Of a stretch of DNA of 33,735 bases, positions 277-32,955 are shown in pieces; the first letter of the stretch is position 1, and every line of letters starts with the position of its first letter. The notes under the pieces were generated by a model, which had not been told where the DNA came from, did not search any database, and worked only from the letters and a program-made list of their open reading frames with translations. The stretch lies in the IMG/VR virus record IMGVR_UViG_3300047497_000036, positions 1-33,735 of that record; one strand, 5' to 3'. This DNA is from a virus. The translations under genes were made by a program, and so were the position numbers.

Positions 277-1511
277 GACGCCTCCCTCAGCTTCGTCGCC
301 CACGCCTCGAGCAAGGCCGCGAGCTCGGCGCGCGGGATCTCGAGGGCGTCGATCAGCGAGTCGACGGTCAAGCCCCCGTGAAAGACGTTCGTCGAGGGGG
401 CGACGGTGACCTGATCGGCCTTGCGCGGGCGACCGCGCTTCGGCGCCTCGGTCGCCACGCCAACCGGCGGGGGCGCAGCCGCACCGACCGGCGGGGCCGG
501 GGGTAGGGCGCTCTCGGGCGGGTTCACCGGCGCCGGCGCGGGCAGGGTCGCCGCGGCGCGGCTCGCGGCCAGGGGCTCGCCCGGCGCTACGGGCTTCATG
601 AAGGTCGCCGGGATCGCCGCTGCGGGCGCGGGCGCGACCGACTCCGGCGGAGTCGTCGGGGCCGGCGGGGGCACGGCGCAGCCGGCGGGGGTCCTGCGCA
701 GCCGGTCGAGTAGAGAGCCTGTACGTACATCGCCCATGGGGGGATTCTCCTTTTCGTTCCATGCCGACGCGTGGACGCTCGGCGAAAGGTTGCACTTGTT
801 CCGGTAGGGGCACCCGCCGAACGCGTCGCACGCGAGGGGCGACGGCGGGAGCTCCTCTGCTTTCGTGATCCCCCCTCTTGTGGTGACGATCTCTCTCGCG
901 ACCGCGTCGATCCGCTCGAACTCCCCCACGACGTGGGGCGCGGCGAGCGGGAGGTGCACGCGCATCGCCCGCGCCGCGCCCCGTGTCCGGGTGTACCCCC
1001 AAACCGCGTCGACCTCGTCGGCGCCCTCGAGCATCGCCGCGAACGCGTAGGTGATGCACTGAGTGTCGTTCCGAAGGATCTCCGCGGTCTTCGCCCAACG
1101 GAAGTCGCCGGTCGTCTTCGTATCCCAGACAAGGGGGCGGCCGGGCGTGTCGATTCCGGGCACGATGCGCGAGTCAGGCGCCCAGAGATCGAGCTCGCCT
1201 TGCCAGCCCCACGCCCCGCCGAAGGGCGACGGGAAGACGAACTTCCTCCGCAGCTTCATCCCCGGCGACATCGGCGGGGGGAGCAGCGGCGCGAGGGCGG
1301 TGGCGATCTCGCCCGACCGGCGGGTGAAGTCGAACGCCCGCCCGGTCGCGAGGTACGGGTCAAGCTGCTCGTCCTGTACCTCGGTGCCTAGCGCAGCGCT
1401 GGCGTTCTGCGGGGTCTCGACCTTCTCTATGTACTTGAACGCCCACTTCCTTTTGCAGAGGGTCCACGTATCGATCTGGGTCGGCGAGTACAGGTCGAGG
1501 TTAGGGTCCAC
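273..1511 (-). CDS. PD-(D/E)XK nuclease, Cas4/RecB type, with AT-hook tail
   Basis: This 412-aa protein carries the marks of a Cas4/AddB-like exonuclease. The N-terminus has SPTQIDTWTLCKRKW with Cys19. The metal centre is Asp108 (GELDLW), Asp130-x-Lys132 (WDTKTTG) and Gln151. A C-x5-C-x5-C cluster (Cys228, 234, 240) together with Cys19 would bind an Fe-S cluster, as known for the family. Residues 275-355 are a Pro/Ala-rich linker, followed by an AT-hook-like KRGRPRK at 358-364 and a short helical C-terminus. The likely role is DNA end processing or recombination in phage replication. It starts at GTG with AAGGG just upstream, which is part of the repeated GTCACCACAAG motif. The linker and AT-hook are unusual additions to the core, which is normally near 250 aa. 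Confidence 0.85.
   Translation of the reverse strand: MDPNLDLYSPTQIDTWTLCKRKWAFKYIEKVETPQNASAALGTEVQDEQLDPYLATGRAFDFTRRSGEIATALAPLLPPPMSPGMKLRRKFVFPSPFGGAWGWQGELDLWAPDSRIVPGIDTPGRPLVWDTKTTGDFRWAKTAEILRNDTQCITYAFAAMLEGADEVDAVWGYTRTRGAARAMRVHLPLAAPHVVGEFERIDAVAREIVTTRGGITKAEELPPSPLACDAFGGCPYRNKCNLSPSVHASAWNEKENPPMGDVRTGSLLDRLRRTPAGCAVPPPAPTTPPESVAPAPAAAIPATFMKPVAPGEPLAASRAAATLPAPAPVNPPESALPPAPPVGAAAPPPVGVATEAPKRGRPRKADQVTVAPSTNVFHGGLTVDSLIDALEIPRAELAALLEAWATKLREAS
877..887 (-). repeat. Copy A of the 11-bp motif GTCACCACAAG (inside nuclease gene)
   Basis: An exact minus-strand copy of GTCACCACAAG, here lying inside the nuclease coding sequence (codons for V-T-T-R). Unlike the other three copies it is not followed by a start codon, although AGGGG follows it. 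Confidence 0.6.
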
Positions 1512-1516
1512 GTGCC

Positions 1517-1551
1517 CTTGTGGTGACGACAGCGGAAGGTGTCACCACAAG
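1517..1551. promoter_or_regulatory. Divergent control region: inverted pair of GTCACCACAAG
   Basis: CTTGTGGTGAC (1517-1527) and GTCACCACAAG (1541-1551) form a perfect 11-bp inverted repeat around a 13-base spacer between the leftward nuclease gene and the rightward replication block. Each arm ends 5-6 bases before a start codon (GTG at 1511 on the minus strand, ATG at 1558 on the plus strand) and its AAG forms part of the Shine-Dalgarno sequence. It could be an operator pair or a shared translation leader. The base-level repeat is certain; the function is inferred. Confidence 0.65.
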
Positions 1552-1557
1552 AAGCGC

Positions 1558-1668
1558 ATGCTCACTCCGATCCCGACGACGTACGCGGGCGTGACGTTCC
1601 GATCGCGGACTGCGAAAGACCTGATTCAGGCAGAGAAACGCGCACGTACGCAAAGGTTCTGGGGTTGA
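1558..1668 (+). CDS. 36-aa small protein upstream of and coupled to the replication gene
   Basis: A short ORF starts at ATG six bases after a GTCACCACAAG copy (AAGAAG acts as Shine-Dalgarno) and ends in a TGA overlapping a TTG start of the next gene (TTGA at 1665-1668). The peptide has a TYAGVTFRSRTAKDL stretch and a basic C-terminus. The YxGVxFRSR pattern faintly recalls the N-terminus of some phage nuclease-like proteins, but at this length no function can be given. Its third positions are G/C-rich, better than the competing frame that starts at 1539. It could be a leader peptide or a regulator. Confidence 0.5.
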   Translation: MLTPIPTTYAGVTFRSRTAKDLIQAEKRARTQRFWG

Positions 1669-3458
1669 TCACCTTCGCCCTTTATCCCGTAGTCGGCGGG
1701 CGGTGCGGCTGCGGGAATCCCGAGTGCAAAAACGCCGGCAAGCATCCCGCCGAAGCGTGGTCTCGTATCCCCGACGACCGCGCGCCCCTTGTTCCCACCG
1801 AGACGCAGGGCGTAGGTATCGCCACCGGCGCACGTTCCGGCGTCTTCGTGCTCGACATCGACACGAAGAACGTGGACGGGTTCGCAGAGCTCGCGAAGCT
1901 CGGCGACCTGCCGGACACCTATGCCGTGCAGACGCCTACAGGCGGGGCGCATCTCTATTTCCGGCACCCCGGGTTCCCTGTTCGGAACTCGGCCCCGAAG
2001 TCGAACCCGATCGCCCCCGGCCTCGACATCCGAGGCGACGGCGGTTACGTCGTCGCGCCCGGGTCGCCGCACGCGAACGGCGGGCGGTATGAGGTCGTCT
2101 GCGACGCTCCGATCGCCGACGCGCCCTCGTGGCTCCTCTCATGGCCCGGGCTGAAGCACCGGGGCACCGAGCTCGCGGCGCCCGCGGCCGACGTCGAGGC
2201 GCGTGTCGCGTCCGTTCCGAAGGCGTGGCGCATCGCGAAAGCAAAAGCGTGGGCCGCGACGCAACCCCCTGCGATCGAGGGGGCTGGCGGGGACGGGCAC
2301 ACGTTTCAGGTCGTGACCCGCGTCGTACACGACTTCTGCCTCACCGATCAGGACATGATCGACGAGGCGCTCGTCGAATGGAACTCAAGGTGTCAGCCAC
2401 CATGGGCCGGCGCCGAATGGACGCACAAGGTCGACTCGGCGCTGAATCATTCGACAAAGGAATGGCGCACGGGGATAACGCTGGAGTACGCGGCCGAGAA
2501 CTTGCTTTCCGCGGAGGTGCCGGACGCGCCCGAGGGGTGGGGTGTCATCGACTGGAACAAGCTCGACCCCCCGATCCGTTGGGTCGTCGAGGGCGTCGTT
2601 CAAGAGGCGACCGTATCGCTGGCCTTCGGCCCGCCGAACGCCTTGAAGACGTGGACGATGTACCTGATCGCTGCGGCCGTGGCATCGGGCACGCCCTGGC
2701 TTGGGCGCCCCGTCGGCCGTGGCCTCGTCGTGATCCTCGACTACGAAAGTAGCGAGAGGCAGGCGCGCCGACGCATGCGCGTGCTTCAGCAACGGGGGAT
2801 CACCGGCATCCGCTACGTGAACCCGAAGGAAATGCTCGACGAGCCCGACTTGTGGGTGCGCTTGGCCGAGCTGAAGCCCGCGCTCGTCGTCGTCGACTCG
2901 CTGTCACGCGGCATGATCGGCCGAGACGAGAACGATGCCAAAGCGATGGCGATCCCGCTCGACCTCGCGAAGCGCCTCGCGCGCGACTGCGGCGCGGCGA
3001 CGATCTTCATCCACCACAAGAACAAGAGCGCGGCTGAAGGGCACATGGCTGCTCGAGGCTCGGGCGCGATCACGGCCGCGGCCGAAGGGTGGCTCGAGTT
3101 CGACGACTTCGAAAAGGGCTCGGGAAGCGTTCAGCGCGCCACGCTTCGCTGCGGGCGCCTGACGGAGTCGATCGCGTTCGACGACATTCGGTTGGAGCTC
3201 TCCGACGAAAAGGGGCTCGTCGAGGTGAAGGCTGCGGGGTCAGAGCCCGTGTCGAAGGGGCTGGACAATCGCGAGCGCATCTTCTCGATCTTGCGTTCGC
3301 GATCGGAGGGTGTGCCTCGGAAGGAGCTGCGCGGCGTGCTTCGGGGCACGATGCAGAAACGCGAGGCTGACATCTCCGAGCTGCTCGTGTCTGACACGCT
3401 TGTGAAGTTCAAAAGGGACGGCGAAGAGTGGGTCATGTTGCGTCCTGGGGCGCCCTAG
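1665..3458 (+). CDS. Replication protein: Prim-Pol primase/polymerase fused to RecA-like ATPase
   Basis: About 597 aa from the TTG that overlaps the upstream stop. The N-terminal archaeo-eukaryotic Prim-Pol domain shows CGCGNPECKNAGKHP, catalytic Asp64-x-Asp66 (LDIDTKN), GGAHLYFR and the GLDIRGDGGYVVAPGS block. A linker domain follows (about 190-300). Then comes an AAA_25/RepA-like ATPase: P-loop GPPNALKT (322-329), Walker B LVVVD (Asp411) and IHHKNK (449-454). The P-loop lacks the usual second glycine, a change also seen in phage RepA-like proteins. The C-terminus (about 540-597) looks like a winged helix. It would prime and unwind phage DNA at the AT-rich repeats directly downstream. The start is uncertain: an in-frame GTG at 1539 exists but lies inside the repeated motif. 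Confidence 0.85.
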   Translation: MITFALYPVVGGRCGCGNPECKNAGKHPAEAWSRIPDDRAPLVPTETQGVGIATGARSGVFVLDIDTKNVDGFAELAKLGDLPDTYAVQTPTGGAHLYFRHPGFPVRNSAPKSNPIAPGLDIRGDGGYVVAPGSPHANGGRYEVVCDAPIADAPSWLLSWPGLKHRGTELAAPAADVEARVASVPKAWRIAKAKAWAATQPPAIEGAGGDGHTFQVVTRVVHDFCLTDQDMIDEALVEWNSRCQPPWAGAEWTHKVDSALNHSTKEWRTGITLEYAAENLLSAEVPDAPEGWGVIDWNKLDPPIRWVVEGVVQEATVSLAFGPPNALKTWTMYLIAAAVASGTPWLGRPVGRGLVVILDYESSERQARRRMRVLQQRGITGIRYVNPKEMLDEPDLWVRLAELKPALVVVDSLSRGMIGRDENDAKAMAIPLDLAKRLARDCGAATIFIHHKNKSAAEGHMAARGSGAITAAAEGWLEFDDFEKGSGSVQRATLRCGRLTESIAFDDIRLELSDEKGLVEVKAAGSEPVSKGLDNRERIFSILRSRSEGVPRKELRGVLRGTMQKREADISELLVSDTLVKFKRDGEEWVMLRPGAP

Positions 3459-3483
3459 TGATTTCGCGCACTTACAGAATTAC

Positions 3484-3504
3484 GGGTGACAATTACTGTC
3501 ACCC
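3484..3504. other. Hairpin GGGTGACA / TGTCACCC in the origin candidate
   Basis: A perfect 8-bp inverted repeat with a 5-base loop (ATTAC), starting 25 bases after the replication gene stop. It is followed by CCAAAA on the plus strand rather than a T-run, so it is a poor terminator. It may be a protein binding site within the repeat cluster. Confidence 0.5.
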
Positions 3505-3603
3505 CCAAAATTACGCCCGTAATTACGGATCTCGCAAACGAAGGTAAAGCGTGGAATTTATTGCGATTACGGGCGTAATTTTAGGATCGATTTTCCCCTA
3601 TAA

Positions 3604-3640
3604 TTACGCCCCCCGAGTGCCTATAGGCACGGGGGCGTAA
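3604..3640. other. Long hairpin with central palindrome GTGCCTATAGGCAC
   Basis: The 14-bp perfect palindrome (3617-3630) is extended by TTACGCCCCC on the left and GGGGGCGTAA on the right, giving a stem of about 17 bp with a small bulge. Its outer ends are AATTACG-type repeats. It sits between the iteron cluster and the RuvC-like gene. It may be an origin structure, an operator or a transcription pause site. Confidence 0.5.
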
Positions 3641-3669
3641 CTGGGGCGGCTGTCAGGGGTGCTCTTTCC

Positions 3670-3680
3670 GTCACCACAAG
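3670..3680 (+). promoter_or_regulatory. Copy D of GTCACCACAAG, leader of RuvC-like gene
   Basis: An exact copy of the 11-bp motif ending five bases before the ATG at 3686. The following AGAGGG gives the Shine-Dalgarno sequence. It shares the downstream GCATGCTC with the copy at 1541. Confidence 0.6.
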
Positions 3681-3685
3681 AGGGC

Positions 3686-4141
3686 ATGCTCGTCACGATC
3701 GACCCCGGGGTGCACTCGGGTTGGGCGCTCTGGGGGTTGCACGGACTGATCGCGTGCGGTCTCGGCGACCCTCGAAGCTGCAAGCTGCACCGGGTGACGT
3801 CAGACGATCCCGACGTCGACACGATCCGCGACGTGTGGATCGAGCGCCCGGTCGTGTACCCGCACTCGCCCGTGCGCCCGAACGACCTGATCACCCTGGC
3901 ACTCGACGCCGGGCGTTGGGCGGGGATCTACGAAGCGTGCGGAGTCGAGGCGCACTTCGTGACGCCGGCGGAATGGAAAGGGCAAGTCCCCAAGGCGATC
4001 CATCACGCGAGGATCTGGGGCGTGCTCTCGGCCGAGGCGCAAGAGGTCGTCGAGAAGGGCTGCAGGAAGCTCGCGCCCTCGAAGCGTCACAACGTGCTCG
4101 ACGCGGTCGGGCTCGGGCTCTGGGTTAGGGGGTGGAGGTGA
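3686..4141 (+). CDS. RuvC-like Holliday junction resolvase
   Basis: A 151-aa protein with the RNase H-like fold pattern of RuvC. The first strand is VTIDPGVHSGWALWG with Asp6, the second acidic residue is Glu53 (DVWIERP), and the C-terminal KRHNVLDAVGLG supplies His135 and Asp139. A DAGRWAGIYEACG helix and VTPAEWKG follow the usual order. It would resolve branched DNA before packaging, matching its place after the replication gene and candidate origin. ATG 3686 is chosen because AGAGGG precedes it and the protein then begins directly at the first catalytic strand. The next gene begins at its stop. Confidence 0.8.
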   Translation: MLVTIDPGVHSGWALWGLHGLIACGLGDPRSCKLHRVTSDDPDVDTIRDVWIERPVVYPHSPVRPNDLITLALDAGRWAGIYEACGVEAHFVTPAEWKGQVPKAIHHARIWGVLSAEAQEVVEKGCRKLAPSKRHNVLDAVGLGLWVRGWR

Positions 4142-4770: not shown

Positions 4771-5475
4771 GTGCGTCCACATTGGCTAGTCGCTGCGTTT
4801 TTCCTCGGTGCGACGTGTTGCCGCCCGGCTGCAAAGCTGGAGCATCCGCGCCCTTCCCCCGAAACTCTTGCGGCGCAGCTGGTAGATGAGACCGTCGCGC
4901 TCTACGACTCCGAGCAGGAAGCCCCGTTCTGCTCTGGCGTCTGGATGTCCGATGCGGTTTTCCTGACCGCCGACCATTGTGTCGCCTCGAAGCACGCGAC
5001 CCCCGGCGACGTGCTGTCATACGTCGTGCGGCGCGACGTGAGCGAAGCCGGCGACATTCGCACGATCCGTCACGCTGCAGTGCTCGCGGTCGACGAGACG
5101 CACGATCTCGCCCTCCTACGCGCGCTCGATCCCCCGCCCCACACTGCGGCCCGTCTTTCGTCCAAAAAGCTCGTGGCGGGGCTGCCAGTGTTCACGATGG
5201 GGCATCCCGTGAAGCTCTGGTGGTCGTTCTCCTCGGGCGAGATCGCGGCGGTGCGCATCCTCGCCGACGAGGACGAAGACCCCGTGCACTACGTGCAGGC
5301 AACCGCGCCCGTGTCGCCAGGCTGCTCAGGCGGGGGGCTCTTCGACGACGAGGGAAACCTCGTGGGCGTGACCCGGGCCGTCTGGGGCCGCCAGTTCGGG
5401 GCCGAGAACACGAACCTGTTCGTCCACCGCGACTCGGTCGCAGTGTTCCTGCAGCACGAAGGGATCACGTCGTGA
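4771..5475 (+). CDS. Secreted trypsin-like (S1 family) serine protease
   Basis: A 234-aa protein starting at GTG, eight bases after AGAGGGG. Residues 1-20 form a signal peptide with Cys16-Cys17; the lipobox is imperfect, so lipidation is uncertain. The full chymotrypsin-fold triad is present: His69 (TADHC), Asp112 (DETHDLALL) and Ser186 (SPGCSGGGLF). FCSGVWM before the His motif and GHPVKLW between Asp and Ser fit the S1/HtrA-type layout, with no PDZ domain. It would act in the periplasm or outside the cell. It lies between the sigma-like gene and a coupled small gene. A secreted trypsin-like protease is unusual in a phage and may be a lysogenic-conversion or moron gene. Confidence 0.85.
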   Translation: MRPHWLVAAFFLGATCCRPAAKLEHPRPSPETLAAQLVDETVALYDSEQEAPFCSGVWMSDAVFLTADHCVASKHATPGDVLSYVVRRDVSEAGDIRTIRHAAVLAVDETHDLALLRALDPPPHTAARLSSKKLVAGLPVFTMGHPVKLWWSFSSGEIAAVRILADEDEDPVHYVQATAPVSPGCSGGGLFDDEGNLVGVTRAVWGRQFGAENTNLFVHRDSVAVFLQHEGITS

Positions 5476-12398: not shown

Positions 12399-13064
12399 AT
12401 GACGACGGTCTACGCAACGCAGGCCGACGTCTACAAGTACGGCCTCCCTCGCGGGGCGCTCGGCAACCCCGGGCGCCTCGCGGCCTCTGCCCCGGCGTCG
12501 ACGAGCACCGTCGAGCTGATAGAGCACTCCTTCTCGCTCGGCGACTCGATCACGTTCCGCACGCCCGATGGGGACACGAGCGCGGCTCTCCCGAGCCCGC
12601 TCCTTGCGGGAGTCATCTACTACGCCGTTCCCGTCACCGACTCGACTTTTCGAGTCTCGACGACGCCCGACGGGCTGAGCCTCGTGACGTTCACGACCGA
12701 CGGCGCCTCGGTGATCGTGACGGCGGATCTCCCTTGGGCGGCCTTGCTCGAGTTCTACTCGAGATGGGTGGAGGGGTTCCTGCCCGCGCATGCGGTGCCC
12801 CTCGCCGCGCCGTACCCGATCACGATCGTCGGGATCGTCGCGCAGCTCGTCGCCAAGCGAGCGCAGATCCTCTCCGGCCTCGTGTCGGAGAGCATGAACG
12901 ACACCGAGGCGGCTGCGGCGAAGCAGCTCGAGAGGTTCGCGCAAGGCATCCCCGTGCGCGATGTCGCCGCGACGCAAGTCGAGACGAACCTCGCGGTGAA
13001 GCGGGCGTGTCGTGACGATCGGATCGGCCGGTGGTCGCGCTGGCCCGGCGGGCCCCTCGAGTGA
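12399..13064 (+). CDS. Head-tail connector, Mu gp36-like (DUF1320) with inserted domain
   Basis: A 221-aa protein. The start (MTTVYATQADVYKYGLP) and the C-terminal half (HAVPLAAPYPITIVGIVAQLVAKRA, then MNDTEAAAAKQLERFAQGI) fit the Mu gp36/DUF1320 adaptor. Between them, residues about 47-106 form an extra beta-rich module (LGDSITFRTPDG, IYYAVPVTDSTFRVSTTPDG) common as an insertion in phage structural proteins. Usual family length is about 140 aa, so the insertion explains the size. AAGGGG precedes the ATG. The stop overlaps the next start. Confidence 0.65.
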   Translation: MTTVYATQADVYKYGLPRGALGNPGRLAASAPASTSTVELIEHSFSLGDSITFRTPDGDTSAALPSPLLAGVIYYAVPVTDSTFRVSTTPDGLSLVTFTTDGASVIVTADLPWAALLEFYSRWVEGFLPAHAVPLAAPYPITIVGIVAQLVAKRAQILSGLVSESMNDTEAAAAKQLERFAQGIPVRDVAATQVETNLAVKRACRDDRIGRWSRWPGGPLE

Positions 13065-13998: not shown

Positions 13999-15876
13999 AT
14001 GGCCAATCTCCCCGAAGCGTCGGTCCAGATCGACGAGACCGCGGGCGCACTCGCCGGCGGTATCGACTACCTCGTCGTGATGTCGCCGGTGTCGCAGAAC
14101 GCCGACATGACCCCGAGGATCTTCGCCTCGACGAAGTCGATCCTCGCGCTGCACAACTATTCGCAGGGCGCCGACTACGCGGCGCTGCACTTCGCCGAGA
14201 CCCGCAAGCCCGTGATCTTCGTCGGCATGCCGATCGAGGTGCCGGGCGTGCTCGGAAGCTTCGACAATTCAGGCATGGCGGGCACGAGCCTCGTTACCGT
14301 GTCGGGCTCGCCGCTCGACGAGGTCGACGGCTCGGTCACGTTCCTGAACTCGGGCACCGTCGGCACCGACCAGCTCCTGCTCTCGCTCTCGTGCGATGGC
14401 GGCACCTCGACGCAGACGGTTCGCCTCGGCGCCGGCACGGTCGTGCAGGGCGACGTGTTCCTGTTCCGCTCCACGGCGCCGCTCTGGAACGCGGCCGACC
14501 TCACGACCGTGCGCAACGCGCTCGCGAACAACGAGAACCTCGCGCGCTCGTGGCTCGTGTGCGGCGACGTCGACCCGACGCTCGCCGGGAACGTCGTCAC
14601 CGAGATCAGCAACTACGAGACGGCGAATCAGCGCTTCGAGTATGCCCGCACCTCGGCGAAGGACACCGTTTTCAGCGGGCGCGCGTCGCGCGTCACGAAG
14701 ACCGCGCAGCTCGCCGGCGACAGCGTGACCTTTGCGGCCTCGGGCCACACGATCACCCGCTCGGCGGGCTCGTTCATCACGGACGGGTTCGCGGTCGGCG
14801 ACGTCGTCACGGTCGCAGGCACGACCTCGAACAACGGCACGCTTGGCGCGCTGACCGGCCTCTCGGCGACCGTCATGACGTTCGCTTCAGGCGTCGTGAA
14901 CGAAGGGCCGCTCTCGTCGGGCGTCACGATCACCGGCTCGGCTGGCTACGTCTTCGACGGCACCGCGCATACGATCACGCGCTCTTCGGGCTCCTTCAAG
15001 AACGACGGCTTCGCGGTCGGCGACTCGGTGCTCCTCGCCGGCACGTCGTCGAACAATGGGACCTTTGGCCCGATCGCGGCGCTGACTGACACCGTCATGA
15101 CGTTTGGCTCGGGGCTCACAAACGAGACCGTAGCTTCGGGGATCGTGTCGATGACGAAGAGCCTCACCATGGCGACTTTCGTCGCCGCGAGCGTCGCGGC
15201 CTTCGCGAGCATCCAAGGCGAGAGCGAGAAGCGGATCGACATCTCCCTCGGCCGCGGCCGGAAGGAGTCGCAGATCACCTCGTGGGAACTTCGGCGCCCG
15301 GCCGCATGGGCCGCGAGCCTGAGGGAGTACCAGCACGATCTCCATATCCCGTGCTGGCGCAAGGCCGACGGCCCCTGCCTCGACTGGAGCCTCACGGACG
15401 CGAACGGGAACACGGTCGAGTTCGATCAGCGCACCGACGGGGGCGCGCTCGAGGGGCTCTTCACATGCTTCCGTACGTGGGCGAACGGGCCGTCGGGGGC
15501 GTTCATCGCGCTTTCGCTGACTCGCGACCTCGACGGCGCTTTCCTCTCGCGAACGCAGAACCTCGCGGTTGCTGACCTCGCGTGCACGGTCGTGCAGATC
15601 GAGACCGAGAACGCGATCGGGCAAGTGCTGCAGCTCAACGACAACGGCACCGGAACAGACGCGTCGCTCTCTCTCATCGAAGAGCGCGTGAACACGGCAC
15701 TACAGGACAACCTTTTGAAGGATGTCCTGAAGGAGGGGCCGCGCGCCTCGAATGCCGTTTGGACGGCGAGCCGCACCGACGTGCTCAGCACTCCGGGGTC
15801 GACGTTGACCGGAAGTCTCGCGCTCAATCTGAACGGCACGATCGAGAAGATCGCCACCGTCTGCAAGGTCTCGTAA
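13999..15876 (+). CDS. Contractile tail sheath protein (DUF2586 type) with inserted repeats
   Basis: A 625-aa protein. Residues 1-235 (start MANLPEASVQIDETAG) and about 385-625 form the sheath core. The C-terminus shows ESEKRIDISLGRGRKES, SPITSWELRRP-like sequence and GQVLQLNDNGTGTDASLSLIEERVN, which fit DUF2586 sheath-like proteins. Residues about 245-375 are an insertion with two copies of a 74-aa unit (separate entry), probably surface-exposed. Contraction of the sheath drives the tube through the host envelope. The tail tube follows 12 bases later. Confidence 0.8.
   Translation: MANLPEASVQIDETAGALAGGIDYLVVMSPVSQNADMTPRIFASTKSILALHNYSQGADYAALHFAETRKPVIFVGMPIEVPGVLGSFDNSGMAGTSLVTVSGSPLDEVDGSVTFLNSGTVGTDQLLLSLSCDGGTSTQTVRLGAGTVVQGDVFLFRSTAPLWNAADLTTVRNALANNENLARSWLVCGDVDPTLAGNVVTEISNYETANQRFEYARTSAKDTVFSGRASRVTKTAQLAGDSVTFAASGHTITRSAGSFITDGFAVGDVVTVAGTTSNNGTLGALTGLSATVMTFASGVVNEGPLSSGVTITGSAGYVFDGTAHTITRSSGSFKNDGFAVGDSVLLAGTSSNNGTFGPIAALTDTVMTFGSGLTNETVASGIVSMTKSLTMATFVAASVAAFASIQGESEKRIDISLGRGRKESQITSWELRRPAAWAASLREYQHDLHIPCWRKADGPCLDWSLTDANGNTVEFDQRTDGGALEGLFTCFRTWANGPSGAFIALSLTRDLDGAFLSRTQNLAVADLACTVVQIETENAIGQVLQLNDNGTGTDASLSLIEERVNTALQDNLLKDVLKEGPRASNAVWTASRTDVLSTPGSTLTGSLALNLNGTIEKIATVCKVS
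14746..15122 (+). repeat. Two tandem 74-aa (222-bp) repeats inside the sheath gene
   Basis: Unit 1 (from 14746) and unit 2 (from 14968) share HTITRS-GSF--DGFAVGD, AGT-SNNGT and TVMTF-SG--NE at protein level, with a 222-bp period. DNA identity is clear but imperfect, so the duplication is not recent. Confidence 0.8.
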
Positions 15877-22267: not shown

Positions 22268-23082
22268 TGGCGACTACTTTCCGATCCCTGCGCAAGTTCG
22301 CGGGCCCGCCGTGGCTCGTCGTGAACGGCGACTCGGCCGCGGTCGGGTATGTGCTCGACGCGCTGAAGGATGCCTTCGTCGACCGTCTCGAAAAGGGGCT
22401 TCTCGCGCGCTTCCCCCAGCAAGGCCCCGACGGCTCGCCCGCGGCCGACGACGCGCTCGCGGCGATGGGTCGCGACCGGCGGATCAAGCGGGGGATCTTC
22501 GACACGTCGGCCGCGTACGCGCTTCGCCTGCTCCGGTGGCTCGACGACTGGAAAGTCGCCGGCAACCCCTACGCCCTTATGCAACAGCTCGCGGCCTACC
22601 TGGGGCCGAGTGTCTCGCTTCGGACCGTCGACGCACGCGGGAACTGGTACAGCCGCGCGGCCGACGGCACCCTTTCCGTCAACCGCCAGCAAGGGAATTG
22701 GGACTGGTCGGGGCAGAACGCCTACGACGTCGCCCGATGGTCGCGCTTCTGGGTGATCATCTACCCTAACGGGCTCTGGCAGCCCGGCCCGAAGTGGGGC
22801 GACGCGGGGGCGAAGTGGGGCACGCCCGGGCGCACGTGGGGATCGACGGCGACCTCGGAGCAGGTCGCGTCGGTGCGATCCCTCGTCGCCGATTGGAAGC
22901 CCGCGGGCACGCGGTGCGTGAATATCATCGTCGCTTTCGACAATACTTCTTTCGACCCGACGCAGCCGCGAGACGGTACAGGGCTCCCTAACGGACTCTG
23001 GTCGCTCCCGAGCTATACGAACGGATCCAACGCGCAGGCGCCCTCGCGCCTCGCCACTGCCAGATATTGGGACGGTGTCTGA
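22267..23082 (+). CDS. Baseplate/tail protein, gpI-like (Mu gp48 position)
   Basis: A 271-aa protein placed between baseplate J and the tailspike, as gpI/gp48-type wedge proteins are. It starts MATTFRSLRKFAGPPWLV. The first 120 residues are helical (LDALKDAFVDRLEKGLLARF, RLLRWLDDWK). Trp/Gly-rich blocks follow (WQPGPKWGDAGAKWG, RTWGS), then RSLVADWKPAGTRCVNIIVAFD, a stretch typical of the family's C-terminal domain. The end probably docks the spike. Its stop overlaps the spike start. Confidence 0.65.
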   Translation: MATTFRSLRKFAGPPWLVVNGDSAAVGYVLDALKDAFVDRLEKGLLARFPQQGPDGSPAADDALAAMGRDRRIKRGIFDTSAAYALRLLRWLDDWKVAGNPYALMQQLAAYLGPSVSLRTVDARGNWYSRAADGTLSVNRQQGNWDWSGQNAYDVARWSRFWVIIYPNGLWQPGPKWGDAGAKWGTPGRTWGSTATSEQVASVRSLVADWKPAGTRCVNIIVAFDNTSFDPTQPRDGTGLPNGLWSLPSYTNGSNAQAPSRLATARYWDGV

Positions 23083-26000
23083 TGTCGAATAACTCCACGC
23101 CGTGGCTTGACGGCCTGCTGAACGGCTTTCGCCGGATGCTCGTCGGGGGCAACCCTGTCGCGATTCCGCCGACGCAGATCGCGAACGATCTGAACATCGT
23201 CAAGGGCGCGAGCGCCGTGTTCAACCCGAACACCGGGGCGCTCGATCTGTCCTTCGCCGGCGGCGCCGTCGCTTACGTCAACGTCACCGACGCGCCCTAC
23301 AACGCAAAGGGTGACGGGACCACGGACGATTCCGCGGCCATTGCGGCGGCGGCCACTGCGGCCCAGGGCCTGGGGGCCGGGGTCTACTTCCCCCACGGGA
23401 CCTACAGGATCAGCACCACCACCGCGCTGGCTAACGCACCGTCAGCGATTGAGCTTGGGGCGCAGATCTCGGTAGACTCCGGGAAAACCCTGACCTTTGC
23501 CGGTCTGGTGGACGGCGCCCCGGACCAGTATATTTTTCCGGGGTCCGGAACCGTCATCTTAGACGGCAATGCCGGGGTCTATGCCGTGTGGTTCGGGGCC
23601 GGGGTCAAGGCAGACCTGGCCGCAGTAATCAACGCCTGCGATACGGCCCTGGCCAGCAATGTGGGTTTTATTTGGGTGAACGTCAACGGGGGCAACTTGC
23701 TCTCTTACGTGGTCATCCACCAGGGCCACCACCTCCGCCTTTGGCCAGGCACATACGCCCCGAACTTCAATCACGATACGTTCAACCTGAACGCTACCCC
23801 GTGGTTGCTGGACGATTACACATCGCTTAGGGGGGCGGGGGATTCGACGGTCCTTCTGGAGAACGCGGGCGCCGCATCTTGGGGACCTGGCCAAGCCCAG
23901 ATCGTGATTGACGCCTATCAGCACGTGGTGGACGCCAATATCAATAACCTTGGCGGTTACGGCCACCTTCAGATCAGTGACGTTCAGATCCAGGCCCCGC
24001 CCGGTAACGCCTTCGGAATTGACGGCGCGGTGGGGGCCATCCAGCTAGGCAACGTTTACGGTTGCGTTATCGAGCGGGTGACGTGTCACCGGAATCATGG
24101 CGGGGGTGTCTACCTTGGCGCGCTTAGTACACCGCGCATCATGTCCGGGTGGGCTGTCTCTTGTGGCGCGGGCCCCTCCGGCCCCACAATACTTACAGGC
24201 ACCGGGACCAAGTTCTCTAGCATTCTCTTCCCTGGCCAAGTATTCGTTATCACGGATTTGCGGGACGCGGGCATTGTCCTAACCGGGACCGCAGGATCCA
24301 ATGTCTGGACTACGCCTCACGACTTGACCGCGGGGCCGGTACAGCTAAAGGCATCCGAGTCCATCGTCATTGATCTGCTACAATACGTGGTGTCCAGTGT
24401 CACCTATGATTCTGGCTCCGGTCTAAGTACGGTAACAACCGTTGAACAATGTAACAGTACAGGTCAACGCTACTTTGACCGCGGTTTTTTCAATATCTAT
24501 AGCATCCGGTCCGATACGAATATGCAGTTCCAGTCTGCTGTTACCGGGTATGCGGGAGACTACTTCGGGCCGGCTCTTTCTAACGTCAGTATCGCCCCCC
24601 TCTTTTGCGCGTACAATAACAAGATCGCCAAGTGCACGTTCCGCGGGTGTTACGGCCAGGTAGTTGGCCCGGTCAACGCTATGGGACTGGACATTGAGTC
24701 TTGTGACTTTTTGGAGCCTTCCCCCTCGCTGGCCGATGCTCTAACCTACCTGGATTGCGAGGCGAATTCCGGTTATTCATACATGGCCCGCATCCGTGTG
24801 CGCGGGTGTCTATTCGATGGGGCGGGGGCTTTCTGGGATGGCATAACTAACGGCTCGGCCAGCGGTATCCAGATCGTAGGCCCCACCGGCGCTAGCGGAC
24901 AGGAGCCTGTCTACGGCGGTTCGGCCATGCAGGATGATGGCCATATTATTTCCGATAACGTGTTCAAAAACATGATTTTCGGAATAAATGCCCTGTGTGT
25001 GTCTAACGTGGTCATCTCCGGCAACATGATAAAGACTGTTGCCGCAAATGGCGCAGGCATAGGTCTATGTAACGATGTTAAAATAACTGGCAATTACTTT
25101 GACGATCCTGTTGACGCCATCGGCATTTCAGGTTGCCAGCATGTAAAAGTGGTTGGTAACACATTCCGGGGACGCGGCAACCCTCAGACAGTTCTCGCAC
25201 AAGACATGACAGGGATTACGGGGGACCCGTACAATCCTGCGACCACATATCCGACCGATTACGTTGCCGTGGAGGGAAACATCTTCGAAGGTCCCTCCCC
25301 TGTTATTACCCTTGTAGGTGCCCACTCTAGCGCCGATAACGTAGTCAATGGCGTTAGGTGTACTAGCACCAATCGAGGTCAGGCCGTGGCTCCGCGGCTT
25401 GTTACGACCAGCGCCACCCTAAACGCCACGGATTGTGCGGTATTCGTGGACGCATCAGGCGGAGACTTGACGCTTACCCTGCCTAGCGCCGCGGTCCTCC
25501 CCCTCGCAGGCACCTTCCCGGAGTACAGGATCAAGCGCGTTGATAACTCCGGCCACACTGTAACCGTTGCAACTACCTCTGCCCAGACCATAGATGGGGC
25601 GGCCCCCTCCCCCCTGGCCGGTCGCGCTACTCTGTTCATTATCAGCGATGGGACCAACTGGCAGAACTTCCCGGCGGCTGGGGGTGGCGGAGGCGCTACA
25701 TGGGGCGGCCTAGGGGCGCTAAATGTCTCTATTATCCCTGATACAGATAACGCCTATGACCTCGGGTCCGGGGCGGATAGGATGCGTGCGGGGTACTTCG
25801 CGGGTTTCCTCGCTGTTGGAACTAGTCCGGCACTCTCAGGGCTTTTGAGGCTGGCCAACAATCAATCGATCGTCTGGCGCAATTTCAATGATACCGCGGA
25901 TGTGACGGTCTTTACGTTCGATAATACGCACAATTTGCAGATCGCCTCCCCGGCAAGCATCGGAGTACAGGCCCCCAATCAGGTCTTTATTTCGGCTAGC

Positions 26001-26363
26001 GGCTATGGGACTACATTCCTTTGCGGCGCCACGGCGGCGGTTGCTGGCCCTTTGACGGGGTTTTCTGCCCCCCTCAGATTCGGAGATTCTGGAGGAATTG
26101 ATCTTGGGACGGGTGGCACCACCACACTATCCTCCGCCCAGTATCAAAACCCCATAATCACTGTAACATCTGCTGGGTTGACCGGCGGCGCCACCCTGGC
26201 CTTCCCCACCACGTCCACTTATTATGTGGTAGACGCGACCGGCGTATCTTTCGGTGGATACGCTGTTACGGTCTCTGCCGGTACCGGGGCCGTAACAGGG
26301 TCTATCACCACCCCTGGAATCTACCTCGTGCGTGTCACGGGGAATAACGTTTACGTCAAGTAA
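23082..26363 (+). CDS. Tailspike / receptor-binding protein with pectate-lyase-type beta-helix
   Basis: A 1093-aa protein. The first about 80 residues are a phage-typical anchor (GNPVAIPPTQIANDLNIVKG). Residue 73 onward is the pectate_lyase_3 start (YNAKGDGTTDDSAAIAAAA, then GVYFPHGTYRIS), followed by a long right-handed beta-helix with NosD-like repeats (VVISGNMIKTV, DVKITGNYFDD, HVKVVGNTFRG). From about 790 a second region has TLTLPSAAVLPLAG and AYDLGSGADRMRAGYF-type fibre domains and a strand-rich end. It would bind and probably cleave surface polysaccharide. From about codon 85 codon use and base composition differ from all neighbours (more A/T-ending codons, CTG/GGG rather than CTC/TCG), a sign of acquisition. 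Confidence 0.8.
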   Translation: MSNNSTPWLDGLLNGFRRMLVGGNPVAIPPTQIANDLNIVKGASAVFNPNTGALDLSFAGGAVAYVNVTDAPYNAKGDGTTDDSAAIAAAATAAQGLGAGVYFPHGTYRISTTTALANAPSAIELGAQISVDSGKTLTFAGLVDGAPDQYIFPGSGTVILDGNAGVYAVWFGAGVKADLAAVINACDTALASNVGFIWVNVNGGNLLSYVVIHQGHHLRLWPGTYAPNFNHDTFNLNATPWLLDDYTSLRGAGDSTVLLENAGAASWGPGQAQIVIDAYQHVVDANINNLGGYGHLQISDVQIQAPPGNAFGIDGAVGAIQLGNVYGCVIERVTCHRNHGGGVYLGALSTPRIMSGWAVSCGAGPSGPTILTGTGTKFSSILFPGQVFVITDLRDAGIVLTGTAGSNVWTTPHDLTAGPVQLKASESIVIDLLQYVVSSVTYDSGSGLSTVTTVEQCNSTGQRYFDRGFFNIYSIRSDTNMQFQSAVTGYAGDYFGPALSNVSIAPLFCAYNNKIAKCTFRGCYGQVVGPVNAMGLDIESCDFLEPSPSLADALTYLDCEANSGYSYMARIRVRGCLFDGAGAFWDGITNGSASGIQIVGPTGASGQEPVYGGSAMQDDGHIISDNVFKNMIFGINALCVSNVVISGNMIKTVAANGAGIGLCNDVKITGNYFDDPVDAIGISGCQHVKVVGNTFRGRGNPQTVLAQDMTGITGDPYNPATTYPTDYVAVEGNIFEGPSPVITLVGAHSSADNVVNGVRCTSTNRGQAVAPRLVTTSATLNATDCAVFVDASGGDLTLTLPSAAVLPLAGTFPEYRIKRVDNSGHTVTVATTSAQTIDGAAPSPLAGRATLFIISDGTNWQNFPAAGGGGGATWGGLGALNVSIIPDTDNAYDLGSGADRMRAGYFAGFLAVGTSPALSGLLRLANNQSIVWRNFNDTADVTVFTFDNTHNLQIASPASIGVQAPNQVFISASGYGTTFLCGATAAVAGPLTGFSAPLRFGDSGGIDLGTGGTTTLSSAQYQNPIITVTSAGLTGGATLAFPTTSTYYVVDATGVSFGGYAVTVSAGTGAVTGSITTPGIYLVRVTGNNVYVK

Positions 26364-26446
26364 ACTCCCACTTGCCACGCCCATAGTGCGGCGGGGTCTG
26401 GGTCTCTGCCTGGGTTTACACGCAGTGAGTGAGAGAGAGTGAAAAC
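26364..26446. other. Short gap after the tailspike gene
   Basis: An 83-base stretch. It holds CGCAGTGAGTGAGAGAGAG-type purine-rich sequence that supplies the Shine-Dalgarno of the next gene. I see no terminator-like hairpin. Confidence 0.4.
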
Positions 26447-26626
26447 GTGAAAGACGATCATCTATCCCCGGTCGTTGTGAACTCTCTTCTCGCGACGGGC
26501 TTCGGCGCTATCTCCGCCGAAGCCCTCACGTACGCCGAGAAAATGCTCTCGGTGCTCGTCTTGGCAGTCGTTGCTGAGTGCGGGCGAAGACTCGTTTCGA
26601 AGTTCTGGAAAGGTGGAAAGTCATGA
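26447..26626 (+). CDS. Small single-pass membrane protein, holin candidate
   Basis: A 59-aa protein; GTG 26447 is chosen because GAGAGAG lies about eight bases before it, and a GTG at 26429 would add six residues. The N-terminal half (HLSPVVVNSLLATGFGAISAEALTYAEKM, split by length) is uncharged and amphipathic, followed by a hydrophobic segment MLSVLVLAVVAEC and a basic tail (RRLVSKFWKGGKS). Position at the head of the lysis block and the basic C-terminus suggest a holin, but only one clear membrane segment is seen. Confidence 0.45.
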   Translation: MKDDHLSPVVVNSLLATGFGAISAEALTYAEKMLSVLVLAVVAECGRRLVSKFWKGGKS

Positions 26627-31893: not shown

Positions 31894-32955
31894 TCAGCCC
31901 CGGCCCCGCAGTCGGAGCACCGCCCGGGCTGCCTGCTCGCCCGTCGTGACGTATCGGGCGGTCGTGCTCACGTGTCGGTGTCCGACGAGGTGCGCGACCC
32001 CCGCCAGCGGCGCCCCCGAGTTTACGTCGTGCGTGATCCTCGAATGCTTGAAGTCGTACACGCCGATCCCCCGACCCTCGAGCCCCGCGGCCTTCAACGC
32101 GGCCTTGAGCGAGAACCGCAGCGACTCGGGCTCGGCGTCGAAGAGTCGCCCCTCGCCCGACTTGGGCCACACGCGGTCGAATGCCTTGCGCGCCGCAAGG
32201 GTGATCGGCACCTCTCGCTCCATGCCTTCCTTGTCGATGTCTCGGCTGATGAAGAGCTTCCCCGAGCCCTTGACGTAGTGCTTGCCCGCTTCGAGCTTCA
32301 GCACGGTGATCGGCCGAAGCCCGGTTTCCCAGAGCACGGCGAAGAGCGGGCGCACCCAGCAGCCAGTTCGCCTCGAACGTTCGGGCATCGCCGCCAAGAT
32401 CTTGCGCACCTCTGCCGGGCGCATGATCACGGCCTTCGCCTTGCGCGCGTTCTTGGCCCGCACGCCCGCATGGCCGTGCTTCGGAAGCTTCGGCACCTCA
32501 TCGATCGTCACACCGCGCACCCCGAGCCAATCGCGGAACTGGCGAAGGGCCGAGAGCTCCTTCCGCAGCGTGCTCCGGGTCGCCTGCTGGATGCGCTTGG
32601 CGATGTAGTCGCCGTACGTCGGCCGCGTGAAGCGCTCGAGGGATCGGAAGTGCGGGAGGAAATGCGCCCGGAAATAGTCTTCAACGGTCTTCGTCGTGCC
32701 CGCCGCGTGCTGCGTTCCGTAGGCGAGCAGGAACTCGGCCGAGACCTTGGCGAGGTCGCCCGAGACCGGCAGATCCGCTACGCGGCCCGAGACCCTTTCG
32801 GCGTAGATCCTCGCGGCCTCCGTAGCAGCCTCGCTAGGATCGCTTCGACCTGTTCCGACGACGTAGCGGACGCCTTCCCACCGGAAGCGAACGCGATACT
32901 GGGTGCGGGGCGGCCGGGGAGGTACGAGTTTCCAGCCTTCTGCCGATCGAGCCAT
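31894..32955 (-). CDS. int: Tyrosine recombinase (phage integrase)
   Basis: A 353-aa protein with an N-terminal arm-binding domain (YRVRFRWEGVRYVVGTG, residues 20-36), a SAM-like core-binding domain (about 65-160), and a catalytic domain carrying Arg214 (TGLRP), Lys242, His304-x-x-Arg307 (FKHSRITHD), His326 (LVGHRHVS) and Tyr335 (TARYVTT). All six conserved positions are present. It recombines attP with a tRNA-Leu gene, whose 3' half lies about 100 bases downstream. The ATG lies deep inside the AlpA-like gene; a later start would lose the arm-binding strands, so the overlap appears real. Confidence 0.9.
   Translation of the reverse strand: MARSAEGWKLVPPRPPRTQYRVRFRWEGVRYVVGTGRSDPSEAATEAARIYAERVSGRVADLPVSGDLAKVSAEFLLAYGTQHAAGTTKTVEDYFRAHFLPHFRSLERFTRPTYGDYIAKRIQQATRSTLRKELSALRQFRDWLGVRGVTIDEVPKLPKHGHAGVRAKNARKAKAVIMRPAEVRKILAAMPERSRRTGCWVRPLFAVLWETGLRPITVLKLEAGKHYVKGSGKLFISRDIDKEGMEREVPITLAARKAFDRVWPKSGEGRLFDAEPESLRFSLKAALKAAGLEGRGIGVYDFKHSRITHDVNSGAPLAGVAHLVGHRHVSTTARYVTTGEQAARAVLRLRGRG

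Follow-up and report, generated by a model that had tools for sequence, protein, structure and literature searches.

That a replication origin lies immediately 3' of the initiator-helicase gene has been established for SaPI/PICI Rep (PMC6092414); for SCCmec Cch2 the support is biochemical (PMC7581432). In both systems, short iterons around an AT-rich stretch are read by the C-terminal domain of the helicase (PMC6092414, PMC7581432). For ORF904 of the Sulfolobus plasmid pRN1, the essential origin is a stem-loop of about 100 nt, beginning 54 bp past the stop codon (PMC4234260). P4 alpha unites primase, helicase and winged helix in one protein that binds origin repeats, and the origin of RSF1010 (IncQ) combines iterons with the priming hairpins ssiA and ssiB (PMC4234260). 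A sequence-only reading of the phage DNA studied here had placed a candidate origin after its Prim-Pol gene, which is where the published initiator-helicase origins lie (PMC4234260, PMC6092414, PMC7581432).

The window, by which we mean the whole stretch of 33,735 b that was analysed, is a complete IMG/VR record of 66.5% GC, classed as linear, and contains Mu-like portal, terminase and capsid genes as well as an integrase gene. A gap of 227 b separates the Prim-Pol/AAA_25 gene (stop at 3458) from a gene for a RuvC-like resolvase (ATG at 3686). Sequence comparison suggests that positions 3478-3642 in this gap are very probably a replication origin made of iterons and hairpins, which the primase-helicase of the phage itself would read. 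The features are as follows, with the strand given for the coding features.

1539-3458 (+): replication gene, encoding a Prim-Pol, an AAA_25 (RepA-type, RecA-fold) helicase and a probable C-terminal winged helix (Pfam; closest structure 1g8y)
3258-3440 (+): C-terminal domain of the replication protein, proposed iteron reader (AF2 model; the repeat motif tracks this domain across homologs)
3478-3527: left iteron block, with AATTACG at 3478+, 3509+, 3518- (palindrome 3509-3524) and 3521+
3484-3504: 8-bp perfect inverted repeat GGGTGACA-ATTAC-TGTCACCC, a hairpin or operator-like dyad
3504-3585: large foldback with 20-nt arms (3504-3523 and 3566-3585), 95% complementary, and a 42-nt loop
3525-3610: AT-rich stretch of 43% GC that separates the iteron blocks and reaches into them, candidate unwinding element
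3565-3642: right iteron block, with the palindrome 3565+/3572-, then 3602+ and 3634-
3604-3640: iteron-hairpin-iteron element TTACGCCCCC-cga-GTGCCTATAGGCAC-GGGGGCGTAA with a CT..AG core, candidate single-strand priming hairpin
3686-4141 (+): RuvC-like Holliday junction resolvase, the next downstream gene (phrog_1770, E 8e-10)

The first iteron lies 20 b past the stop codon of the replication gene. Exact AATTACGSS sites number five (3478+, 3509+, 3516-, 3572- and 3602+), and record-wide all of them fall within the region, which holds three more sites with one mismatch (3521+, 3565+ and 3634-). The cluster in both orientations within about 165 bases (3478-3642) is thus as had been described, and the earlier count of about seven sites is corrected to eight. 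The shorter AATTACG matches six times in the record, always in the region, against an expectation of 1.07 and with none of 100 shuffles reaching six, and the best 7-mer (short-repeat) cluster of the record is this same region. The sites pair as two palindromes of 7+2+7 form, AATTACG-CC-CGTAATT (3509-3524) and GATTACG-GG-CGTAATT (3565-3580). These near-identical palindromes make up the arms of the large foldback and are able to fold onto each other.

The 8-bp perfect hairpin proposed from the letters is present at 3484-3504, as is the long hairpin at 3604-3640, which carries the palindrome GTGCCTATAGGCAC at its tip (3617-3630) and inverted TTACG sites at its foot, with a stability of -16.2 kcal/mol (z -4.7). 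Folded as DNA, the whole region reaches -52.6 kcal/mol (z -6.1), and no shuffle is as stable. The sharp contrast with the GC-rich genome also holds: nowhere else in the record is AT content as high as in the region (41-43% versus 66.5% GC), and the AT-richest 133-b segment begins at 3472 with 41.4% GC. No switch in GC skew is visible, which carries little weight either way, the curve being almost flat across the whole 33.7-kb fragment.

In the replication protein, Pfam places the Prim-Pol domain at residues 69-198 (E 8e-30) and the AAA_25 domain at residues 338-498 (E 4e-27), and the nearest solved structure to the helicase is RSF1010 RepA (1g8y), both by sequence and by predicted fold (fold E 1.2e-11). 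The C-terminal domain is modelled as three helices followed by a beta hairpin, which is the order of a winged helix (AF2, residues 261-321 of the translation of window positions 2478-3455, pLDDT about 42-76). It is thus a probable winged helix, the confidence of the model being moderate to low. Pfam does not recognise this domain in the window, its model as an isolated domain has a poor fold and a fold search with that model was empty; the C-terminal domain of a relative (L007) just misses Pfam HTH_24, scoring 21.8 bits where 21.9 are required.

The replication ORF opens at GTG 1539, and TTG 1665 is the likelier start. A 36-aa ORF (MLTPIPTTYAGVTFRSRTAK...) at window positions 1558-1668 (+) ends in TTGA, and because this stop overlaps the likely Prim-Pol start at TTG 1665, translational coupling of the two is suggested. 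The sequence GTCACCACAAG occurs four times exactly in the window, at 877-887 (-), 1517-1527 (-), 1541-1551 (+) and 3670-3680 (+), and three of these copies stand a few bases ahead of start codons (1511 GTG -, 1558 ATG + and 3686 ATG +), running into the Shine-Dalgarno sequence; they resemble the start-associated sequences known from certain mycobacteriophages. A gene for a trypsin-like serine protease (Pfam Trypsin_2, E 1e-22) is located at 4771-5475 (+), after the replication genes and before those for packaging. Further on, GC falls to 55-58% at about 23500-26500, within a long ORF (23067-26363) that is probably tail-fibre-like and foreign in composition.

Queries with the Prim-Pol alone (viral_contigs, genome_contigs), with the RuvC-like protein and with the divergent start-motif pattern returned no close relatives, and the terminase query gave one relative at 67% (L122), whose contig starts at the terminase and is without the region. 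No relative with AATTACG iterons was found in searches by Prim-Pol, terminase or palindrome. The exact 16-bp palindrome is present in 24 phage contigs, which is the chance level, in no case beside an AAA_25-type helicase. A pattern scan of IMG/VR for two TTACGSSCGTAA palindromes 25-55 b apart matched four contigs, and in two of them (L004 and L006) the palindrome repeats lie directly 3' of an AAA_25 helicase stop, L006 having about a dozen GTTACG copies there. One of the other matches (L003) was set aside as an AT-rich tandem repeat, and in the last (L005) the repeats follow a VapE-like primase. In that contig, paired GTTACGCGCGTAAC palindromes are found right 3' of the VapE-like primase gene (L005:2458-2506; IMGVR_UViG_3300036781_000138, 12761-12809) and a second pair about 1.8 kb further on, at 14609-14643; these could be origin or operator sites. 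The corresponding scan of genome_contigs gave 22 loci, one of which (L110) has a TTACG-type pair directly after an AAA_25 stop, and the remaining loci were dismissed as unrelated repeats with no adjacent AAA_25 gene. Six bacterial contigs (L105, L107, L111, L113, L119 and L121) carry several close TTACGSSCGTAA palindromes unrelated to AAA_25 genes, and some of these clusters look like dispersed chromosomal repeat families.

Because the palindrome pairs in L004, L006 and L110 adjoin AAA_25 stops, a survey based on the helicase was undertaken, in which 80 metagenomic phage loci were reduced to 34 non-redundant ones. An array was scored when the 300 b after the stop held a 7-mer cluster stronger than in any of 60 dinucleotide shuffles. 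Downstream arrays were present in 28 of the 34 non-redundant viral loci, compared with 2 of 30 upstream regions, and in 28 of 34 the cluster after the stop was the unique strongest of the whole 4-7 kb locus. The sample was picked by similarity to L015, a plasmid protein encoded by a gene that itself has an array; 28/34 is therefore too high as a general rate, and the figure for annotated phages and plasmids at the same stringency, 10 of 20 with two more borderline, is fairer. The annotated carriers are FP_Lugh, Diane, CRP-831, Javan311, BCJA1c, EFC-1, PB15, ChibiTotoro, a Methylobacterium plasmid and a Caenibius plasmid. No array was found directly 3' of the AAA_25 gene in Gordonia Upyo and Ligma, Nocardia NBR1, Corynebacterium BFK20, Caulobacter GB2A and Microcystis Mae-JY30.

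The arrays begin 1-75 b past the stop and have 4-13 copies each, often all on the same strand. Their motifs vary by lineage (TGCGGAAG, CCGGACA, GGCGTAGG, GCGTGACA, TTTATACA, GGTTACGG, AATTACG and others), and the gene that follows differs among homologs, being a resolvase, a pyrophosphohydrolase or a hypothetical gene. In the loci compared, it is the position and architecture that is conserved across homologs, not the letters. Five loci (L039, L044, L090, L091 and L095) share the element CTAAGTCATTGAWWTCATTG between iteron blocks of differing motif, and four others (L015, L022, L026 and L029) share another, about AACCCGCAGAAAACCGTG, in their downstream arrays; either may be an unwinding element, or a site for a host factor, that origins have in common even where their iterons differ.

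Another recurring feature is a hairpin whose core reads CT..AG. Since inverted iterons make hairpins themselves, a test for any strong hairpin is less specific, and core-specific tests were used. The CT..AG hairpin was found downstream in 15 of 56 loci, compared with 0.8 expected in shuffles and with 1 of 52 upstream, an enrichment that is partly post hoc in that the core was defined after part of the sample had been viewed. Inverted iterons often flank it on both sides in the manner of 3604-3640, as for instance in L014 (GCGCAACACAACCCTATAGGGTTGTTGCGC), L056 (GTGACACCCCCTATAGGGGGTCAC) and PB15 (GGTTCACACACCTTATAGGTGTGAACC). The recurring hairpins of the relatives are mostly without a T-run after them, and the CT..AG hairpin is for this reason not an ordinary terminator. 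The recurrence of the layout of replication helicase gene, iteron array and hairpin downstream of the stop, and its rarity upstream, supports the candidate origin that had been proposed.

A C-terminal domain that reads the repeats should vary together with the motif. In partial Mantel tests, in which shared ancestry can inflate the correlation and is not fully removed, similarity of the motif tracks the last 105 residues when the ATPase domain is controlled for (partial r 0.41, 0 of 2000 permutations), and in the reverse test the ATPase domain adds nothing clear (partial r 0.11, p 0.09). Such covariation is what a C-terminal iteron reader would be expected to produce.

Other explanations of the region have to be considered. 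The repeats might be operators of a regulator acting on the downstream resolvase operon, or serve autoregulation of the replication gene, with the origin elsewhere. The dyads AATTACGSSCGTAATT and GGGTGACA-N5-TGTCACCC do resemble dimeric operator sites, the region sits ahead of a gene in the same direction, and conserved repeats were seen in no close relative. Across homologs, however, the array goes with the helicase gene that precedes it, whereas the gene that follows varies, and as many as 13 copies in one array, frequently all on one strand, is unlike an operator. A scan for sigma-70-type promoters found none, and the covariation of the motif is with the helicase's own C-terminal domain. 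We consider it unlikely that the repeats are operators only.

Hairpins this strong, coming straight after a gene, would also suit transcription terminators or RNA elements that end the replication transcript, and there is one terminator-like match in the region; this sole site is on the minus strand, opposite to the gene, and 0.5 such sites are expected by chance. After the long hairpin comes CTGGGGCGG, which is no T-run, in line with most of the relatives, no Rfam match was obtained, and termination would leave the multiple iterons unexplained, which makes this explanation highly improbable. We give equally little credence to a site of recombination (attP) or packaging (pac/cos), or to a patch of imported DNA that is AT-rich by chance. 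The inverted repeats and the AT-richness could fit attP, and odd patches do occur in mobile phage genomes, but the integrase gene is far off at 31894-32952, the terminase genes begin about 2.2 kb downstream, and unrelated phages and plasmids show this architecture again after homologous helicases, which neither chance nor att sites would explain.

For the proposed replication origin, we infer a sequence of C-terminal binding, melting, helicase loading and priming. The AATTACGSS copies would be iterons bound most likely by the winged-helix-like C-terminal domain of the Prim-Pol/RepA-type helicase, and this binding would gather the replication protein where the gene encoding it ends and lead to opening of the AT-rich stretch. 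The RecA-fold RepA-type helicase could then load as a hexamer on the opened DNA, and the fused Prim-Pol would prime the exposed single strand, possibly at the distal hairpin with its CTATAG core. By analogy with the ssi hairpins of RSF1010 and the stem-loop of pRN1 (PMC4234260), the CT..AG hairpin may be a priming or loading signal.

It is tempting to extend this to a widespread class of phages and phage-plasmids, in which a primase-fused RepA-type helicase with its own origin reader would load itself at a 3' iteron-hairpin origin, iterons and C-terminal domain would diversify as matched pairs, and the CT..AG hairpin would be the common priming or loading signal; we regard the case for this as evenly balanced. 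In the open-access papers searched, we found no report of a rule that the origin lies 3' of the AAA_25 helicase gene. As the same repeat-and-hairpin plan stands in the same place among relatives, the origin would be readable straight from the genome, and origins of many uncharacterised tailed phages could, if the proposal is true, be located by sequence directly 3' of the AAA_25/RepA-type helicase gene. A large natural set of DNA-binding domains, each with its cognate iteron, would likewise be available for work on specificity and incompatibility, and the downstream-iteron plan of the initiator-helicases of SaPI, SCCmec and pRN1 would extend to RecA-fold helicases.

Like SaPI/PICI and Cch2, the phage has its candidate iteron origin directly after the initiator gene, and in it two iteron sets (3478-3527 and 3565-3642) flank the AT-rich stretch 3525-3610. 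Unlike helicases of the SaPI Rep/D5 type, its helicase is of the AAA_25/RepA type, with a RecA fold and fused to a Prim-Pol, and SaPI, PICI and SCCmec are satellites or cassettes whereas this is a full tailed phage. As in pRN1, Prim-Pol, helicase and winged helix (here a modelled one) are in a single protein and a large stem-loop lies just 3' of the gene, the 20-nt-arm foldback starting 46 b past the stop and being of a size comparable to the pRN1 stem-loop; pRN1 differs in having an SF3 helicase and no iterons, compared with an AAA_25/RepA-type helicase and an iteron-built origin here. The fused primase-helicase-initiator logic proposed here is that of P4 alpha, which has a TOPRIM-type primase and an SF3 helicase, while the primase of the phage is a Prim-Pol/AEP. 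With a helicase of the RepA/AAA_25 type, the phage stands outside the SaPI/PICI, pRN1 and P4 families, although the proposed logic is alike. It resembles RSF1010 in its iterons and hairpins and in its helicase, for which the hexameric plasmid helicase RepA is the closest in the PDB. Loading of the RecA-fold helicase of RSF1010 requires a separate iteron-binding protein. Whereas RSF1010 divides the work among three proteins (RepA, RepB' and RepC), the Prim-Pol, the RepA-type helicase and the presumed iteron binder of this phage are one chain.
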